Translations under genes and position numbers: made by a program
The notes under the pieces: generated by a model
Databases searched by the model: none
Seen by the model: the letters and a program-made list of their open reading frames with translations, nothing else
Told to the model about the DNA's origin: nothing
Origin: Catenulispora pinistramenti
GTDB taxonomy: Bacteria > Actinomycetota > Actinomycetes > Streptomycetales > Catenulisporaceae
NCBI RefSeq assembly: GCF_018274385.1
Contig: NZ_JAAFYZ010000038.1
Location: 1-60,950 of the forward strand
DNA length: 60,950 bases
Reading direction: 5' to 3'
Shown: positions 43,054 to 52,566 of the stretch, piece after piece
How the letters are laid out: every line of letters begins with the position of its first letter
Numbering within the stretch: the stretch's first letter is position 1

Positions 43054-44037
43054 GTGGCAACTCAGCGGACCGACGAGGCCGGCGGGAACCGTGCGGGCGC
43101 TGCCGCCAAGTCCGCGCCGATCCACTTCATCGTCGAAGTGCTTCGGGGACAGGCGCAGGTGGACTTCATGCCCAGCGCGCTGTGCGGGGTGTTCTTCGCC
43201 GTCGCCCTGTTCGTCTCCGGCTGGCGCTACGGCTTCTACGGGCTCCTCGGCACCGCTTTGGCCACCGGCACGGCGATCGTGCTGGGCGTCAACCGGGACC
43301 GGGTCGCCGCGGGGCTGGAAGGGTTCAACGGATGCCTGGTCGCGGTCGGCTTCGCGGTCTTCCTCGGCGCGGACCACGCCTCGACCTGGCTGCTCGCCGC
43401 GGCCGGCGCGATCACCGTCACCGTCGTGACCGCCGCCTTGGACCAGGTGCTGTCGACGTGGAACATCCCGACCTTCACGGCACCTTTCTGCATCATCGCG
43501 ACGGTCGTGATCGTCGCGGCGCCGGGGTTCCGGCGCATATGGCACAGCGATAAGAACCTCTCGGCGTTTCCCGGTGTGGCGACCGGTAGGACCGCTCTGA
43601 CCTGGCACGACATCTGGCACGCGTTCCTGGGCAACGTCGGGCAGATCTTCTTCATGCCCCAGTGGTACGTCGGCCTGCTCTTCCTGCTGGGCATCTTCGC
43701 CGCGAGCCGGCTGGCCGGCGCCATGGCCTGTCTCGGCAGCGCCGTCGGGATCCTGGTCGCCTGGACGCTCGGCTCACCGGCCGACAGCGTGGCCCAGGGG
43801 CTGATGGGCTACAACTCCGTCCTGGTCGCCATGGCTCTGTGCGGGGTGTTCATCAAGGTCAATGGCTGGAGCGTCGCCTACGCCGTCCTCGGCGCCGCCG
43901 TCGCGACCGTGCTGACCACGGGGATGGGCAACTTCACCAGCACCTTCGGCGGGCATGCCTTCACCTGGCCCTTCGTCCTGACCGCGCTGGCTTTCGTCGC
44001 CGCGGTCCCCTCCTTCCCCCGACTCCGGCGGACCTGA
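43054..44037 (+). CDS. Urea transporter (UT family)
   Basis: A 327-residue channel-type urea transporter with about 10 membrane segments in two homologous halves. The paired signatures are GLEGFNGCLVAVGF (near residue 88) and GLMGYNSVLVAMAL (near 248), with NIPTFTAPF and FTSTFGGHAFTWPF lining the slot. It lets urea equilibrate into the cell for the urease encoded immediately downstream. The GTG start gives an Ala/Gly-rich N-terminus. Its stop codon lies inside the first unit of a 15-bp tandem repeat. Confidence 0.92.
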   Translation: MATQRTDEAGGNRAGAAAKSAPIHFIVEVLRGQAQVDFMPSALCGVFFAVALFVSGWRYGFYGLLGTALATGTAIVLGVNRDRVAAGLEGFNGCLVAVGFAVFLGADHASTWLLAAAGAITVTVVTAALDQVLSTWNIPTFTAPFCIIATVVIVAAPGFRRIWHSDKNLSAFPGVATGRTALTWHDIWHAFLGNVGQIFFMPQWYVGLLFLLGIFAASRLAGAMACLGSAVGILVAWTLGSPADSVAQGLMGYNSVLVAMALCGVFIKVNGWSVAYAVLGAAVATVLTTGMGNFTSTFGGHAFTWPFVLTALAFVAAVPSFPRLRRT

Positions 44038-44095: not shown

Positions 44096-44401
44096 ATGAA
44101 CCTGTCCCCCCGCGAGATCGACAAGCTCTACATCTACGTCGTGGCAGACCTCGCGGCCAAGCGCCGGGCCCGCGGTGTGAAGCTGAACTACAGCGAGGCG
44201 TGCGCGCTGATCAGCGAGGCCATCTTGGAGGGCGCCCGGGACGGGAAGAGCGTCGCGCAGTGCATGGAGATCGGCAAACAGGTCGTCTCGGCTGGCGACG
44301 TCATGGACGGCGTGCGGGAGATGCTCCCGCTGCTGCAGGTCGAGGCCGCGTTCATGGACGGCACCAAGCTCGTCTCCTGCCACGACCCGGTCGGTGCTTG
44401 A
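44096..44401 (+). CDS. ureA: Urease subunit gamma
   Basis: A 101-residue urease gamma subunit with [18 protein letters not shown] at the N-terminus, [20 protein letters not shown], and [17 protein letters not shown] at the end. Length equals the family norm. It is the first structural subunit of the operon. It is followed, unusually, by a CbiX-like gene (2-base gap) rather than directly by ureB. Confidence 0.97.
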
Positions 44402-44403
44402 CG

Positions 44404-45267
44404 GTGAGCGCCCCGGCCGTGGAGCTCACCGCGCAGGCCACGGTCGTCCTCGTCGGCGGACACGAGAGCGACCGTGGCGAGGCGCTGCACGCGCTGGCCC
44501 AGGACAGTCCGCTGACTCGGGCCCGCGCCTGCGGTCAGGAGCTCGAAGAAGCTGTCCGCGCCGCACTCATCACCTCTGAGCTGCCGGTCTGCGTCGTGCC
44601 GATGACGCTGGGCCGCGACCCCGAGCTGGTCGCGGACACCGCCAGGACGCTGGCGTGGGTGGCCCGAACCACAGGGCCCCCGCGCATCGCGCTGGCTGAG
44701 CCCTTCGGGACCGCGGAGCATCTCATCGGATGGCTTCGGGCCGCGGCGGGCCGGGCCGCCGTCGGCGCCGCCGGGGCCGCCGGGGCCGCCGGGGCCGACC
44801 CGGCCGACGTCGCGATTCTGGTGACCGCGAACCCCGCGAACCCCTTCGACGACGCCGAACTGTTCCGGATCGCGCGCCTGGTCCAGGTGCAAGGGCGGGC
44901 ACCGTGGGTGGACGTCGCGTTCCACGGGGGCGATCCAGACGTCCAGACCGGCGTCGATCGTTGCCGGCGACTCGGCGCGCGCCGGGTCGCCTTGGTGCCC
45001 GCCGGGTTCGCTCCGGCGGGCGGGACCGAGGTGGCGGCGGCCGAGGCGGCCGGAGCGGTCGACGCCGGTCCGCTCCTGGCACCGTCCGCGATCTCCGGCG
45101 TGCTCGCCGCGCGGATCCAGGCCGCCGTGGACCGGCTGCGAGCCGGTGACGACGGGATCGCCGCGGGACTGGACGCGGAGCACGGTCACGGCCACACCCA
45201 CTCCCATACCGACGGACCGGCCGCCCACGGCCATACCCACAGCCACAGCCACGCATCAGGACACTGA
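44404..45267 (+). CDS. CbiX/SirB-like chelatase-family protein with His-rich tail, in the urease operon
   Basis: A 287-residue protein with two chelatase-like halves. The first has [20 protein letters not shown] then [20 protein letters not shown], and the second [20 protein letters not shown] with [15 protein letters not shown]. The first active-site His of CbiX enzymes is recognisable in GGHES, but the second is replaced by GRD and the repeat half lacks both, so tetrapyrrole chelation is doubtful. An Ala/Gly linker separates the halves. Residues 259-287 hold 11 histidines (HGHGHTHSH ... HGHTHSHSH), resembling UreE or HypB nickel-binding tails. With ureE absent from the operon, nickel storage or delivery to UreG/UreF/UreD is the best inference. 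The GTG start is 2 bases after ureA. Confidence 0.82.
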
Positions 45268-45295
45268 CCACCGACCGCAGGAAGGGACGAGCACG

Positions 45296-45694
45296 ATGTC
45301 AGGTGACTCAAGATACATCTACGGCGACGAGCCGGTGGAGATCAACGCGGGCCGCAGGAAGGCCTCGCTCACCGTCCACAACACCGGCGACCGGGCCGTC
45401 CAGGTCGGTTCGCACTACCACTTCTTCGAAGCCAACCGCGCCCTGGACTTCGATCGCGACCAGGCCTTCGGCATGCACCTGGACCTGCCGGCCGGCACCG
45501 CCGTCCGCTTCGAGCCCGGCGACACCAAGGAGGTGGCGCTCACCGAATACAGCGGTCACAAGCGGCTGGTGGGCTTCAGCGGTCTGACCGACGGCGGCGT
45601 CAACTCCACCGACACCCGTGGCAAGGCGTTCCGCAACGCCGTCGAGCGCGGCTTCCGCGGCGCGCGGCTGGAAGACCAGGAAGGTGAGCGCTGA
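45296..45694 (+). CDS. ureB: Urease subunit beta
   Basis: A 132-residue beta subunit. [40 protein letters not shown] and [19 protein letters not shown] match the family throughout. The start at 45296 follows GAAGGGACGAG. Its stop overlaps the ureC start by one base (TGATG), giving coupled translation. It packs with UreA and UreC in the urease trimer. Confidence 0.96.
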
Positions 45695-47418
45695 TGGCCA
45701 CGCTGCCCCGCAAGCAGTACACGGACCTGTTCGGTCCGACCGTCGGAGACCGCTTCCACCTGGCCGACACGAACCTGGTCGTCGAGGTGGAGAAGGACTA
45801 CAACGTCGGCCACTACGGGGATGAGGCCGTCTACGGCGGCGGGAAGAGCATCCGCGACGGGATGGCCCAGGATCCGCTGGCCACCGCCGCCAACGGCGCG
45901 CTCGACACGGTGATCACGAACGTGGTCGTGATGGACCCGATCCTGGGCGTCGTCAAGGGCGACATCGGGATCAAGGACGGCTTCATCGCCGGGATCGGCA
46001 AATCCGGGAACCCGCACACCCAAAGCGGTGTGGACCCGGCTCTGGTGATCGGCCCGGGCACCGAGGTGATCTCCGGCGAGCACCTGATCGCCACCGCCGG
46101 CGGCATCGACTCCCACATCCACTTCATCTCCCCGCAGCAGGCCGAGGCCGGCCTGTCCAACGGCATCACGACCCTGATCGGCGGCGGTACCGGCCCCTCG
46201 GACGGCACCAACGGCACCACCTGCACGCCGGGGCCGTACAACATCGGCTGGATGTACCAGGCCGTCGAGGGCCTGCCGGTGAACGTCGGGCTGCTCGGCA
46301 AGGGCAACGGCTCGCTGCCGTTCTCGTTGCGCGAGCAGGTCGAGGCCGGGGTGTGCGGGCTGAAGGTGCACGAGGACTGGGGCACCACCCCGGCCGCGCT
46401 GTCGTGCGCGCTGGACGTCGCCGACGAGTACGACGTCCAGGTGGCGGTGCACACCGACACGCTGAACGAATCAGGGTTCTTCGAGGACACCCGCTCGGCG
46501 ATCGACGGCCGCACCATCCACACCTTCCACACCGAGGGCGCCGGCGGCGGCCACGCCCCGGACATCATGCGGGTGGCCGGCGAGCCGAACGTGCTGCCGT
46601 CCTCCACCAACCCGACGCTGCCGTACACCGCCAACTCCGTGGACGAGCTGCTGGACATGGTGATGGTCTGCCACCACCTGTCCCGCGACATCCCCGAGGA
46701 CGTCTCCTTCGCCGACTCCCGGGTGCGCGCCGAGACCATCGCCGCCGAGACGGTCCTGCACGACGAAGGCGTCATCTCGATCTTCTCCTCGGACTCCCAG
46801 GCGATGGGCCGGGTCGGGGAATCCTGGACCCGCGCGTTCCAGACCGCGCACCACTGCAAGGACAAGCGCGGCAAGCTCGACGGCGACAGCGAACGCAACG
46901 ACAATCACCGGGTCCTGCGTTACCTGGCGAAGATCACCATCAACCCCGCCATCGCGACCGGTACCGCGCAGCACATCGGCTCGCTGGAGACCGGGAAGCT
47001 GGCCGACATCGTGCTGTGGCCGATCACCTCCTTCGCGGCCAAGCCCAAGATGGTCATCAAGGGCGGCGCCATCAACTGGGCGCTGATGGGCGACCCCAAC
47101 GCCTCGCTGCCGACGCCGCAGCCGGTCTACTACCGGCCGATGTTCGGCGCCTTCGGCAAGGCCAGGCAGGCCACCCGTGTCTCGTTCATGTCCAAGGCCG
47201 CGATCGAGCTCGGCGTGCCGCAGCGGCTCGGCCTGGACAGCAAGGTGCTGGCGGTCCAGAACTGCCGCTCGGTCGGCAAACAGCACATGGTCCGCAACGA
47301 CGCGCTGCCGAAGATCGTGGTCGACCCGGAGAACTACAAGGTCACGCTCGACGGGGTGCCCGCCACCATCGAGCCGGCCCGTGAGCTGCCGCTGAACCAG
47401 CTGTTCTTCCTGGCCTGA
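45694..47418 (+). CDS. ureC: Urease subunit alpha (catalytic)
   Basis: A 574-residue catalytic subunit that hydrolyses urea to ammonia and carbamate with two nickel ions. Visible active-site elements: GGIDSHIHF (His 141 and 143), GLKVHEDWG (carbamylated Lys 224, His 226), [12 protein letters not shown], the mobile-flap MVMVCHHLS, and SSDSQAMGR with the Ni-binding Asp. The C-terminus ends in LFFLA. All key residues are present, so an active enzyme is expected provided nickel is inserted by UreF/UreG/UreD. Confidence 0.98.
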
Positions 47419-47423
47419 GCCCG

Positions 47424-48137
47424 ATGGTCACGACGACGGCGACAACGCGGGCCGGCCTGGACGCGTTGCTGGTGAGCCTCCAGCTCACGGACTCGGCGTT
47501 CCCGAGCGGCTTCTACACGCTCTCGCACGGGCTCGAGGGCTACGCGCAGGCCAAGGCCGTGACGGCGGAATCGCTGCCGGCGCTGCTGGCCGATCTGCTG
47601 CGGCACTCGGTCGGCCCGGCCGACGCCACCGCTTTGGCGGTGGCGCATCGGGCTGTCCGCGGCGGTGACTGGGACCTCGTCATGGACGCCGACCGGCGGC
47701 TGCACGCGACCAAGCTGAACCGGGAGCTGCGGCAGGCCTCGACGCGCACCGGACGGCAGCTGCTGGACCTGGCCGGGGAAGTCCTCGACGGTGCCGGCAT
47801 CAGCCGGTACGCCGAACTGGTCGCCGCCAAACGCACGCCGGGTTCGCAGGCCGTCGCGCTCGGCGTCGCCTACGCGGCGGCCGCAGTCCCCGTCGAGCAG
47901 GCGGTGACCGGCGATCTGTTCGCCTTCTCGTCGAGTTTCGCCGGCGCGGCGCTGCGCCTGCGGCTGACCGACTTCCGCAAGGCGCAGGTCCTGCTGCGCG
48001 CCATGGCGCCGGTCATCGCGGAGGTCGCCGGAGCCGCGCTCGGCCGCGACCCGGCCGACATCGGCGGCTGTGTCCCGGTCGCCGACGTCATGTCCGGACG
48101 CCACGAACGAGCCCCGGCCCGGCTGTTCGCCAGCTGA
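47424..48137 (+). CDS. ureF: Urease accessory protein UreF
   Basis: A 237-residue accessory protein with LQLTDSAFPSGFYTLSHGLE near residue 22, the family signature, and a helical body ending in RHERAPARLFAS. It bridges UreD and UreG on apo-urease and acts as a GTPase-gating factor. It begins 5 bases after ureC. The tail is typical for actinobacterial UreF. Confidence 0.94.
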   Translation: MVTTTATTRAGLDALLVSLQLTDSAFPSGFYTLSHGLEGYAQAKAVTAESLPALLADLLRHSVGPADATALAVAHRAVRGGDWDLVMDADRRLHATKLNRELRQASTRTGRQLLDLAGEVLDGAGISRYAELVAAKRTPGSQAVALGVAYAAAAVPVEQAVTGDLFAFSSSFAGAALRLRLTDFRKAQVLLRAMAPVIAEVAGAALGRDPADIGGCVPVADVMSGRHERAPARLFAS

Positions 48138-48183
48138 GCAGCACCCGGCCACCCATCGCAACCAGCAAGGAAAGGCAATCCCC

Positions 48184-48804
48184 ATGGCGGACAGCGTTCT
48201 GCGGGTCGGCATCGGCGGCCCGGTCGGCTCCGGCAAGACAGCCCTCATCGAGGCCCTGGTGCCGATGCTCATCGGCGGCGGGCACCGGCCCGCGGTCATC
48301 ACCAACGACATCTACACCCAAGAGGACGCCGCACACGTCCGCCGGACGCTGGCCGGCGTTCTGGACCCCGAACGGGTCGTCGGTGTGGAGACCGGCGCGT
48401 GCCCGCACACGGCGGTGCGCGACGACCCGACCATGAACCTGGCCGCCGGCGCCGAGATGCTGGACCGCTTCCCCGACGTCGACACCCTGCTGTTCGAGTC
48501 CGGCGGCGACAACCTGACCCTGACGTTCAGCCCGGCCCTGGTCGACATGTTCCTGTTCGTCCTGGACACCGCCGAGGGCGAGAAGATGCCGCGCAAGGGC
48601 GGACCCGGCATCACCGAGTCCGACCTGCTGGTCATCAACAAGGTCGACATCGCGCAGTACGTACGGACCGACCTGGCCGTGATGGAGTCCGACGCCTACC
48701 GGGTCCGCGACGGCCGACCGGTCGCGCTCACCAACTGCCTGACCGGACAGGGCCTGGAGGCCGTCGCCGACTTCCTCGACAGCTTCCGCAAGGTCCCGGC
48801 ATGA
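48184..48804 (+). CDS. ureG: Urease accessory GTPase UreG
   Basis: A 206-residue SIMIBI GTPase. It has P-loop GIGGPVGSGKTALIEAL, ITNDIYTQEDA, the nickel-binding Cys-Pro-His in ETGACPHTAVRDD, ESGGDNLTLTF and guanine-binding NKVD. It carries nickel to urease in a GTP-dependent manner. The N-terminus lacks a His-rich stretch, so nickel storage must come from another protein. Its stop overlaps the ureD start by 4 bases. Confidence 0.97.
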   Translation: MADSVLRVGIGGPVGSGKTALIEALVPMLIGGGHRPAVITNDIYTQEDAAHVRRTLAGVLDPERVVGVETGACPHTAVRDDPTMNLAAGAEMLDRFPDVDTLLFESGGDNLTLTFSPALVDMFLFVLDTAEGEKMPRKGGPGITESDLLVINKVDIAQYVRTDLAVMESDAYRVRDGRPVALTNCLTGQGLEAVADFLDSFRKVPA

Positions 48805-49793
48805 CGGCGACCGCCGAAGCCGGACCGGAGGCGGCACCGATGCCTCAGCCTCAGCCGCCGTCCGTCGAACGCCGACTCCGCCCCGAGCACTACGAACCGG
48901 CGCGGGTACCGCCGGAGGTGCTCCGCCACGCCGGCCGCCCGGACACCCTGGCGGTCGGAAGCCCGGGCAAGGTCGGCGTCCTGGAACTCGGCTTCCAGCG
49001 GATCGGCGGACGCTCCGAGTTGGTCACGCACTACCAGAAGTCGCCGCTGCAGATCATGAGGCCGCTGTACATCGACCCGGCCCGCCCGGACCTCGCGTTC
49101 GTCTACCTGATGTCGACCGGCGGCGGGGTCCTGCAAGCGGACCGGCTGCGCACCGACCTGGACTGCGGCGCGGACACCGCCGTCCACTTCACCACCCAGG
49201 CCGCGACCAAGGTCCACCGCATGGACTTCGACTACGCCACGCAGATCGTCAACCTGCGGGCCGGACCGAACTCCTACGTCGAATACCTGCCCGAGGCGAT
49301 CATCCCGTTCGGCGGATCCCGCTTCTATCAGCACACGGTGATCACCGCCGATCCGTCCGCGACGGTCCTGGCCGGCGAGACCGTCCTGGCCGGACGGCTC
49401 GCCCGGGGCGAGCGCCACGGCTACGACGCCTTCGCCTCAGACCTCGAATTCCGCCGCCCGGACGGTGAACTCCTCGCTCTGGACACCGTCCGCCTGGAGC
49501 CCGCCGGGCTCGGCGTGACCGGGCCCGCGGTGCTCGGCGGGCACGACATCATGGCGACGCTCTTCGTCGTCACCGCGGTCGCGGACGCCGCGGCGGTCGC
49601 CGACACCCTGCACGATGCCCTGGCTGATGCGGATGTCCGGTACGGCGTCAGCGTCCTGCCCGGCGACTGCGGCGCCTGGGTGCGGATTCTCGGCGACCTC
49701 TCCCCGGCCGTCAACGAAGCGACGCGCCGGGCCTGGGACGCGGTGCGCCAGCTGGTGATCGGTGCCCCCGCGCCGGACCTCCGGAAATCGTAG
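48801..49793 (+). CDS. ureD: Urease accessory protein UreD
   Basis: A 330-residue beta-rich accessory protein (UreD/UreH). STGGGVLQADRLRTDLDCG, TTQAATKVHRMD, YLPEAIIPFGGSRFYQ and GYDAFASDLEFRRPDG match the family. It provides the tunnel and docking surface for nickel transfer to apo-urease. The N-terminal 40 residues are Pro/Glu-rich and longer than usual. It is translationally coupled to ureG and followed by two amt genes. Confidence 0.94.
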   Translation: MTATAEAGPEAAPMPQPQPPSVERRLRPEHYEPARVPPEVLRHAGRPDTLAVGSPGKVGVLELGFQRIGGRSELVTHYQKSPLQIMRPLYIDPARPDLAFVYLMSTGGGVLQADRLRTDLDCGADTAVHFTTQAATKVHRMDFDYATQIVNLRAGPNSYVEYLPEAIIPFGGSRFYQHTVITADPSATVLAGETVLAGRLARGERHGYDAFASDLEFRRPDGELLALDTVRLEPAGLGVTGPAVLGGHDIMATLFVVTAVADAAAVADTLHDALADADVRYGVSVLPGDCGAWVRILGDLSPAVNEATRRAWDAVRQLVIGAPAPDLRKS

Positions 49794-49820: not shown

Positions 49821-51185
49821 ATGCCGCGCGCCTTCGATTCGGGAGACACCGCCTGGCTGCTGGCCAGCACCGCGATGGTCCTGCTGATGACCCCGGGCCT
49901 GGCCTTCTTCTACGGCGGGATGGTCCAGACCAAGCACGTCCTGGTGATGATCAAGATGAGCTTCGCCTGTCTGGCGGTCGTCACGGTGCTGTGGCTGGCG
50001 GTCGGCTACACACTCGCCTTCGGCACCGACGTCGGCGGCGTCGGCCTGATCGGCAACCTGGACCACGCCTTCCTGCGCGGCATCGGCCTGACCACCCTGC
50101 ACGGCAGCGTCCCCACGATCCTCTTCTCCTGCTTCCAGATGTCGTTCGCGATCATCACCGTCGCGCTGATCAGCGGGTCCATCGCCGGGCGGGCGACGAT
50201 GCGCGGCTGGCTGTGGTTCGCGGTGATCTGGGCCCTGCTGGTCTACGTGCCGCTGGCGCACTGGGTGTTCGCCCCGGACGGCTGGGTCACCGGACACCTG
50301 GGCGCGCTGGACTTCGCCGGCGGCCTGCCGGTGGAACTCAACTCCGGTGCGGCCGGCCTGGCCGTGGCCATCACGCTGCGCAGGCGCAAGGACTTCGAGC
50401 GCCGGCAGGTGCGGCCGAACAACCTGCCGCTGGTCGTCATCGGCTTGGCCCTGCTGTGGTTCGGCTGGTTCGGGTTCAACTCCGGCTCGGCCCTGCAAAC
50501 GGCCGGCGTCGCCCCGGTCGCGTTCCTGAACACCCAGCTGGCGGCGGCCGGGGCGATGATCGGCTGGCCGCTGATCGAGCGGTGGCGCCTGGGCCGGGTG
50601 GAGATGCTCGGCGTCGCCTCGGCCGCCGTCGCCGGGATGGTGGCGATCACGCCGTCCTGCGGGGAAGTGGACCCGGTCGGAGCGCTGGTCATCGGCTTCG
50701 CCGCCGGCGTCGTGTGCTGCTTCGCCGTCAACATGAAGTACAAGATCCACGTCGACGACACCCTGGACGTGGTGGGCGTGCACGGCTGGGGCGGCATCGT
50801 CGGCGTCCTGTCCATCGGCGTGTTCGCCACCACGCAGGTCAGCGGCAAGAAGGGGCTCTTCTACGGCGGCGGCCTGGACCTGCTGTGGCGGCAGGCCGTG
50901 GCCGTCCTGGCCTGCGGGGCCTTCTCGTTCCTCGCGACCTGGCTGATCGCGCAGGCCGTCGACCGGACGATCGGGTTCCGGACCCGCGAGATCTACCAGG
51001 ACGTCCCCGGCCAGGACGCGGAGATCGCCTACGACACCGAGACCCTCGACCAGATCCGCCGGCGCCTGGGCCCGCCGGAACCGGCACCGGCCCGGGCCGG
51101 GACCGGGACCGGTTCGGCGGCCGGCGACGCCGAACTGCTCGAACAGGTCGTCAAGGTCCTGGACCAGCGGGAGCTGGAGAAGTGA
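49821..51185 (+). CDS. amt: Ammonium transporter, Amt family (copy 1)
   Basis: A 454-residue membrane protein with 11 expected helices. LAFFYGGMVQTKHVLVMIKM near residue 27 and DDTLDVVGVHGWGG (second pore His) are typical. The first pore His (E. coli AmtB His168) is replaced by Glu 172 in LPVELNSGAAGL, as in some fungal Mep proteins. The last 50 residues form an extended soluble tail. It sits 27 bp after ureD, so it probably handles ammonium made by or lost from urease. Confidence 0.93.
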   Translation: MPRAFDSGDTAWLLASTAMVLLMTPGLAFFYGGMVQTKHVLVMIKMSFACLAVVTVLWLAVGYTLAFGTDVGGVGLIGNLDHAFLRGIGLTTLHGSVPTILFSCFQMSFAIITVALISGSIAGRATMRGWLWFAVIWALLVYVPLAHWVFAPDGWVTGHLGALDFAGGLPVELNSGAAGLAVAITLRRRKDFERRQVRPNNLPLVVIGLALLWFGWFGFNSGSALQTAGVAPVAFLNTQLAAAGAMIGWPLIERWRLGRVEMLGVASAAVAGMVAITPSCGEVDPVGALVIGFAAGVVCCFAVNMKYKIHVDDTLDVVGVHGWGGIVGVLSIGVFATTQVSGKKGLFYGGGLDLLWRQAVAVLACGAFSFLATWLIAQAVDRTIGFRTREIYQDVPGQDAEIAYDTETLDQIRRRLGPPEPAPARAGTGTGSAAGDAELLEQVVKVLDQRELEK

Positions 51186-51228: not shown

Positions 51229-52566
51229 ATGACCAGTGACTTCGGAACCGGGAACACCGCGTGGCTGATGGTCGCCACCGCCATGGTGCTGCTGATGGCG
51301 CCCGGTCTGGCGTTCTTCTACGGCGGCATGGTCAAGACCGGCCAGGTCATCGCGATGCTCAAGATGTGCTTCGGGTGCGTCGCGTTCGTCACGGTCATCT
51401 GGTTCGCGATCGGCTACAGCCTGGCCTTCGGCCCCGACGTCGGCGGCGCGGGGGTGATCGGGGACCTCAGCCACTCCTTCATGATCGGCATCGGCCTGAC
51501 CACCAGGACCGGATCGGTCCCGACCATCTTGTTCGCCCTCTTCCACATGATGTTCGCGATCGTCACCGTCGCCCTGATCAGCGGATCGGTCGCCGGCCGC
51601 GCGACGATGCGCGGCTGGATGGTCTTCGTCTGCTTCTGGACCCTGCTCGTCTACGTCCCGATGGCGCACTGGGTGTTCGACCCCGACGGCTGGATCCACA
51701 AACAGGTCGGAGCGGTCGACTTCTCCGGCGGCACCGTCGTGGAACTCGGCTCCGGCGCCGCCGGACTCGCCCTGGCCGCGGTCGCGGGCAAGCGGGAGGA
51801 CTTCGAACGACAGCCCATCCGCCCGCACAACCTCCCGCTGGTCGTCATCGGGCTGTCGCTGCTGTGGTTCGGCTGGTTCGGCTTCAACACCGGCTCCTCG
51901 CTGGAGGTCCCCGGCGGGGCGGCGATGGCCCTGGTCAACACCCAGATGGCGGCGGGCGCGGCGATGATCGGCTGGGCGGTCACCAGTTGGTGGCGCAAGC
52001 GCGAGGTCGGCCTGCTGGACATGTGCATGGGTGCGGTGACCGGCATGGTCGCGATGACCCCGGCGGCCGGCGACGTGACCCCGACCTGGGCCGTCATCAT
52101 CGGCTTCCTGACCGGCCTGACCTGCGCCGTCGCCGTCAGCTGGAAGTACCGCCTGGGTGTGGACGACACCCTGGACGTGGTCGGCATCCACGGCTGGGGC
52201 GGGCTGTTCGGCATGGTGATGCTCGGACTGGCCGGCACCGGCGTGCTGTCCGGACACAAGGGCCTGTTCTCCGGCGGCGGCTGGTCCCTGGTCGGACGGC
52301 AGCTGACCGCCGTCGTCGCCATCGGCCTGTTCTCCTTCGTCATGACCTCGCTCATCGGGAAGGTCGTCGACCTGACCGTCGGGCTGCGCCTGCCCGGCGG
52401 CACGATCGACGAGGAACAGGCCTACGAGGGCGACGTGTCCGAGCAACTGGCCGGGCTGGCCGACTCGATCCGCGGGACCGGCGAGGAACCGACCGAAGCC
52501 GGCGCGGTGCTGGCCAGGCTTCGAGAAGTCATCGCCCACGGCTCGAAACCGTCCTCGGGGACGTAG
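51229..52566 (+). CDS. amt: Ammonium transporter, Amt family (copy 2)
   Basis: A 445-residue Amt paralogue similar to copy 1 throughout (LAFFYGGMVKTGQVIAMLKM, HWVFDPDGWIHKQVGAVDFS, DDTLDVVGIHGWGG). It shares the Glu 172 substitution for the first twin histidine (TVVELGSGAAGL). The C-terminal tail is acidic and differs from copy 1. The two genes lie 43 bp apart and look like a tandem duplication with diverged tails, perhaps for different regulation or heterotrimer formation. Confidence 0.93.
   Translation: MTSDFGTGNTAWLMVATAMVLLMAPGLAFFYGGMVKTGQVIAMLKMCFGCVAFVTVIWFAIGYSLAFGPDVGGAGVIGDLSHSFMIGIGLTTRTGSVPTILFALFHMMFAIVTVALISGSVAGRATMRGWMVFVCFWTLLVYVPMAHWVFDPDGWIHKQVGAVDFSGGTVVELGSGAAGLALAAVAGKREDFERQPIRPHNLPLVVIGLSLLWFGWFGFNTGSSLEVPGGAAMALVNTQMAAGAAMIGWAVTSWWRKREVGLLDMCMGAVTGMVAMTPAAGDVTPTWAVIIGFLTGLTCAVAVSWKYRLGVDDTLDVVGIHGWGGLFGMVMLGLAGTGVLSGHKGLFSGGGWSLVGRQLTAVVAIGLFSFVMTSLIGKVVDLTVGLRLPGGTIDEEQAYEGDVSEQLAGLADSIRGTGEEPTEAGAVLARLREVIAHGSKPSSGT

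Follow-up and report, generated by a model that had tools for sequence, protein, structure and literature searches.

The urease operon of Catenulispora pinistramenti, studied here in a stretch of 60,950 nucleotides (assembly GCF_018274385.1, contig NZ_JAAFYZ010000038.1; "the window" denotes this whole stretch), contains a gene for a CbiX-like, two-lobed protein between ureA and ureB. We consider it likely that this protein is a nickel metallochaperone and reservoir dedicated to urease, built on a class II chelatase fold that is catalytically dead. We favour this reading because the gene is linked to ureA and excludes UreE at the level of the operon, the accompanying UreG is bare, the His-rich tail and residue His106 of the protein are restricted to urease-linked copies, and a catalytic His has been lost. 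That the metal is nickel, that the protein binds it and contacts UreG, and in which direction transfer runs, we infer from this pattern and from published systems. The question addressed is the nickel supply of ureases without UreE. According to passages in PMC9164220 and PMC10100864, UreE passes Ni2+ to UreG, and insertion into urease is then carried out by UreG and its partners. In plants and fungi that have no UreE, a UreG that is His-rich or carries an HXH motif is believed to perform both tasks (a passage in PMC10100864).

A first-pass annotation of the window, made from the letters alone, had described an operon of ureA, a chelatase-like gene, ureB, ureC, ureF, ureG and ureD. Profile matches confirm this content and its coordinates (Table 1), and a count returns the same tail of 29 residues with 11 His. 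The CbiX-like gene has a GTG start 2 bp past the ureA stop, the coupling that had been noted, and its product is probably translated together with UreA. UreG comprises 206 residues, with the N-terminus MADSVLRVGIGGPVGSGKT, a CPH motif and a total of three His. Searches of the 11.46 Mb assembly with the UreE_C and UreE_N profiles gave no match, which rules out a hidden UreE elsewhere in this genome; the annotated lack of both ureE and a His-rich UreG N-terminus stands. UreC has the usual urease active-site motifs.

The arrangement is not restricted to the window, and it recurs too often to be due to chance. A genome scan yielded 39 related loci in Catenulispora, Streptomyces, Kitasatospora, Streptacidiphilus, Rhodococcus/Prescottella and Speluncibacter, of which 38 are usable after dropping one of 44 residues at a contig end (L043). 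The gene lies directly downstream of ureA in 33 of these 38 loci, and in 28 of the 33 the distance between the ureA stop and its rule-chosen start is -4 to +4 bp. Four Catenulispora loci (L008, L009, L015 and L021) show no urease genes in the stretch examined. In a Streptomyces locus (L038:7860-9006) ureA and ureB-ureC are cut down to joined end pieces, with the CbiX-like gene (15 tail His), ureF, ureG and ureD remaining open; we count it in favour of our reading, and the reduction may reflect natural loss, strain history or an assembly artefact. In an order-wide sample at least 17 of 293 genomes are positive for the family. The nine of these that were new and outside the window's genus, with a best DNA identity to earlier loci of about 77-91%, repeat the pattern: all nine lie inside urease operons, beside ureA, and have His106, their last 90 residues contain 12-26 His, none matches UreE, and a UreE_N search of the nine genomes found none. 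Plasmid records gave two matches (L166 and L167), and on one of them, a linear megaplasmid of Streptomyces sp. NBC_01237 (L167), the same type of complete operon is present with a bare UreG.

What kind of protein this is follows less readily from sequence searches than from its predicted fold. The Pfam CbiX profile (PF01903) matches at 25.5 bits against a cut-off of 22, best over residues 151-202 in the C-terminal half, and was the sole family met by hmmscan at E <= 1, UreE_N and UreE_C not being found. The same profile is matched by 18 of 24 members of alignment A1 at E <= 0.01. No NCBIfam model scored above its cut-off (best 13.7 bits, a peptidylprolyl isomerase model), and a six-frame CbiX search of the genome at E <= 0.001 did not have the urease-linked protein among its matches. 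In sequence searches of solved structures neither the protein itself nor its profile retrieved a credible relative, whereas a fold search did. The AlphaFold2 model, based on 39 sequences, has a mean predicted local distance difference test (pLDDT) score of 87.3 and a predicted template modelling (pTM) score of 0.84, with low confidence in the tail. The closest solved folds in Foldseek are CbiK, DR2241, SirB and ferrochelatase, that is class II chelatases including the HemH kind, and VIA-align gives Z 15.7 for SirB (5zt7_A; root-mean-square deviation 4.5 over 230 residues) and Z 14.1 for CbiK (1qgo). The protein is thus predicted to share the two-lobed class II chelatase fold.

Its active site, however, appears degenerate. 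In an alignment with the two canonical CbiX proteins encoded elsewhere in this genome, His20 stands one residue away from the first catalytic His; it is present in all 35 rows that have a residue there (of 39 rows). A block of 14 residues lies opposite VPLVLVAAGHAKGD and VPLLLNSAYHVRQD. Residues 62-72 are identical in 39 of 39 rows; in two later homologs they read VCVLPMTLGRD and ACVLPMTLGRD, so Cys63 holds and Val62 and Val65 can change. Opposite the second catalytic His stands residue 74, a position that differs between homologs. The pair of catalytic His in one half that marks class II enzymes is therefore missing, the first being offset and the second absent, and by this alignment the protein lacks one defining feature of an active chelatase. 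Cysteines occur at residues 43, 63 and 187 only, and there is no MXCXXC motif. Since the second catalytic His falls on a variable position and the first is offset, catalysis is unlikely. The earlier description as a degenerate, His-tailed chelatase whose gene is closely coupled to ureA is supported; the loss of the second active-site His was correctly seen but misplaced, as the residue in its place is Glu74, and the conserved GRD occupies positions 70-72 shortly before. A chelatase that still works, loading nickel or another metal into a tetrapyrrole, would agree with the predicted fold and the conserved His20, but we regard it as very improbable given the missing and variable second His, the neighbouring urease and urea/ammonium transport genes, and the two canonical CbiX proteins in the same genome.

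The His-rich tail and His106 follow urease. Among 50 urease-linked copies, His106 is found in 49, and the remaining one (L071) is unscored as the search motif was not matched. The richest stretch of 30 residues contains 7-14 His in these 50 copies against 1-4 in 14 orphan copies. The tails are long and of varied sequence. Orphan paralogs occur in the window's genus, where 7 of 10 genomes have a pair of CbiX-like copies whose flanks, as far as examined, contain neither an intact ureA nor an intact ureB. The 14 orphans (L049, L050, L138, L141, L144-L146 and L148-L154) have neither a long His tail nor His106, residue 106 being Leu in 13 and Gln in one. Upstream of L050, in the window's own genome, 28 residues match the start of ureA, which suggests duplication out of a urease operon; the other orphans show no such match. 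Some orphans lie near genes that resemble trehalose-phosphate synthase/phosphatase. Judging from these sequences, tail and His106 go with urease and the protein body has some further use. One might picture the protein as a structural partner of UreA/UreB or UreG, or as a factor in their assembly, in which the body is the main element and the tail secondary. The position of the gene between ureA and ureB would suit such a role, as would purifying selection on the body even in tail-less orphans (nonsynonymous divergence, dN, 0.027 and synonymous divergence, dS, 0.339 for L138 against L141). We nonetheless hold it to be quite unlikely, since only urease-linked copies retain the tail and His106.

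As to the origin of the tail, one of the canonical CbiX proteins of the window's genome (L001, G000:C204) combines an MNCDTC motif with a His-rich C-terminal tail and is plausibly a relative of the source of the urease-linked protein. For CbiXL of B. megaterium, a passage in PMC7689651 describes a C-terminal region rich in His, which cobalt insertion does not require and for which a role in metal storage and delivery was proposed. With such tails on both proteins, the tail did not necessarily arise with the urease version.

We surveyed UreE in a class sample of 324 genomes, 146 of which have a ureC match (123 above the family's own cut-off). Scoring was confined to the leading candidates of each genome (8 or 9 for the CbiX-like family in the class and order samples, up to 18 for UreE_N and 4 for ureC), so that the class and order counts are lower bounds. 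UreE_N is above its cut-off in at least 6 of the 146 ureC-positive genomes, each time within about 2 kb of ureC, and UreE_C in at least three genomes of the sample. The CbiX-like family is clear in at least 4 of the 146, the window's genome included. The two sets do not overlap, and by these minimum counts 136 of the 146 genomes have neither. A fifth, weak CbiX-like match (G269) proved to be an ordinary CbiXL with a His-rich end, by its MSCDTC and GHAKGDIP motifs. With four clear cases among 146 genomes, the CbiX-like gene is rejected as a general answer for UreE-less actinobacteria. Nor was UreE to be expected in the operon, as had been assumed: it is as infrequent as the above count indicates, and most examined operons with neither gene have a His-tailed UreG. 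The mutual exclusion of ureE and the CbiX-like gene, for which a survey had been proposed, holds within operons, none of the six UreE operons examined having a CbiX-like gene. It is rejected in its strict form at the level of genomes: among 49 genome entries with the family (47 distinct by matching coordinates; two with orphan copies only), two, both Rhodococcus, have both genes, with UreE beside a second ureC in an operon without the CbiX-like gene.

A further question is where the His-rich element sits. We tabulated 98 operons with a readable UreG, leaving out eleven ureC loci without a recognisable one. The 39 class-sample operons among those taken were hand-picked for spread from many more ureC places; G339:C32 and G343:C111 were set aside as CbiX loci on coordinate fit alone, and 40 of the 57 remaining places were taken. 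As UreG start we took whichever ATG, GTG or TTG lay furthest upstream at a distance of up to 45 codons from the P-loop, and a tail was defined as at least three His before the P-loop or after the core. A carrier gene is assigned to 44 operons: 34 with a CbiX-like gene, six with UreE, and four cut by contig edges (L054, L056, L057 and L063, upstream half off the contig) that are counted as CbiX type from their genome and tree position. A UreG tail is found in none of these 44 operons against 48 of the 54 with neither carrier (L156 has three His by the start rule and none from a start further in). The corresponding Fisher value of 1e-21 is not used as support, because the operon rows are related. 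That UreG tails are missing alongside either CbiX-like protein or UreE suggests a shared step. This bears on the possibility that the tail is a passive buffer or detoxifier, binding surplus nickel with no handover to UreG. Long tails of varied sequence could serve that purpose, and H. pylori has small nickel-binding proteins with a high His content (PMC4671568); yet the absence of UreG tails beside the CbiX-like protein or UreE, and purifying selection on the body (dN 0.052, dS 0.137, window against L005), make a mere buffer improbable.

Where the examined actinobacterial urease operons have neither UreE nor a CbiX-like gene, a His-rich tail on this bacterial UreG is common. In several Streptomyces genomes the UreG of a second operon has its tail at the N-terminus, for example MHLDHGVTFPHRHTHS; this form (MHLDH...HRHTHS) is seen in L060-L062, L065-L067, L069, L070 and L096-L103. 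Another group of operons has C-terminal tails beginning DPGPMAPH (DPGPMAPHxH...), which comprises most of L114-L130.

In the UreC tree L062 and L066 fall with the CbiX ureases into a single supported lineage, which comprises 40 rows and has the UreE-bearing Rhodococcus urease as its sister. L062 and L066 have no CbiX-like gene, their ureA-ureB gaps measuring 39 and 25 bp, and each has five His in an N-terminal extension of UreG; the best trees place them nested among the CbiX ureases. The two trees differ in branching inside the lineage.

Several observations weigh against the proposed role. A clade of CbiX ureases only is not rejected (approximately unbiased test, p 0.156 and 0.174), and the genomes of L062 and L066 both hold a CbiX-type operon elsewhere. 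The tree contains only two independent pairs, of which a mean of 1.9 go in the expected direction (median sign-test p 0.5). With so few, the counts overstate the statistical support, and the weight lies in the recurring anatomy rather than in a p value. Six of the 54 carrier-less operons also lack a UreG tail by the rule used, which indicates that a His tail is not indispensable. Two of these (L083 and L112) have His-rich sequence upstream of the rule-chosen start; in L104, L107, L068 and L073 we saw neither UreE, a CbiX-like gene nor a His-rich UreG tail. Nothing observed here accounts for three of the six exceptions, and L068 lies in a genome with a CbiX-type operon as well. As the orphan copies show, the body has some use without tail or urease, and the His tails of canonical CbiX proteins mean that a tail alone does not show a urease role.

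Taking these points into account, the nickel-carrier reading can be outlined as follows. A CbiXL-like protein with a His-rich tail would have been captured by a urease operon and then have lost catalysis. Its tail would collect Ni2+, perhaps with a further site in the body using His106, His20 and Cys63, and the protein would hand the metal to the tail-less UreG, which would insert it together with UreF and UreD. The protein would thereby fill the role that in other operons falls to UreE or to a His-rich tail on UreG.

Compared with known systems, the CbiX-like protein resembles UreE in its place in urease operons, its C-terminal His, its absence from operons with the alternative and the bare UreG beside it. 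It differs in having no UreE_N or UreE_C match and a predicted chelatase fold instead; it would work like UreE, yet for want of a UreE domain would not be a member of that family. With CbiXL and SirB it shares the predicted fold and two-lobed architecture, and with CbiXL of B. megaterium also the His-rich extension (PMC7689651, in the passage concerned), but it lacks the second catalytic His and the MXCXXC motif and has urease neighbours. Plant and fungal UreG proteins with an HXH motif or a His-rich N-terminus likewise have the His-rich element on another maturation protein in the absence of UreE (a passage in PMC10100864); there the element is fused to UreG, whereas here a separate chelatase-like protein accompanies a bare UreG. 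In the open-licence literature of PubMed Central we found no description of a CbiX or chelatase gene in a urease operon.

The balance tips slightly towards a broader interpretation, namely that an inactivated sirohydrochlorin chelatase has replaced UreE in one actinobacterial urease lineage and represents a second, non-homologous class of urease nickel metallochaperones. The His-rich element would then be movable between UreE, either end of UreG and a chelatase fold, with freed paralogs lacking tail and His106 still under selection. This range of positions exceeds the statement, in a passage of PMC10100864, that the extension is not known from bacterial UreG. If true, a tetrapyrrole chelatase fold has been turned into a protein-to-protein metal carrier, which would also help to name a gene for which Pfam has no label but CbiX. 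With its defined gene and tail and a single candidate residue, His106, the system is testable.

Table 1. Urease cluster of the window and residues of the CbiX-like protein discussed in the text.
Feature	Position	Strand	Basis or remark
Urea transporter (UT family)	43054..44037	+	Pfam PF03253, E 5.5e-86
ureA, urease gamma subunit	44096..44401	+	PF00547, E 2.6e-41
CbiX-like two-lobed protein, 287 residues, proposed urease nickel carrier	44404..45267	+	PF01903; AlphaFold2 model; chelatase fold; related loci
His20 (conserved GHE)	44461..44463	+	alignment with two canonical CbiX
Conserved block, residues 62-72, with Cys63	44587..44619	+	identical in all rows
Glu74	44623..44625	+	variable; second catalytic His in canonical CbiX
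His106	44719..44721	+	kept in urease-linked copies only
C-terminal tail rich in His, residues 259-287	45178..45264	+	count of last 29 residues
ureB, urease beta subunit	45296..45694	+	PF00699, E 2.4e-41
ureC, urease alpha subunit	45694..47418	+	profile matches
ureF	47424..48137	+	PF01730, E 2.3e-33
ureG, no His-rich N- or C-terminal tail	48184..48804	+	TIGR00101, 255.5 bits
ureD	48801..49793	+	PF01774, E 2.6e-49
Ammonium transporter 1 (Amt)	49821..51185	+	PF00909
Ammonium transporter 2 (Amt)	51229..52566	+	PF00909

Two further observations concern incomplete gene sets. On an Embleya megaplasmid (L166) no ureA, ureC or ureG was found in 14.5 kb around a CbiX-like gene and ureB; this stretch and that of L167 carry no annotation. 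The window's queries recognised no ureF, ureG or ureD in L084-L091, which are divergent second ureABC sets with ureC at about 604-651 bits, each followed by an open reading frame of 332-361 residues.

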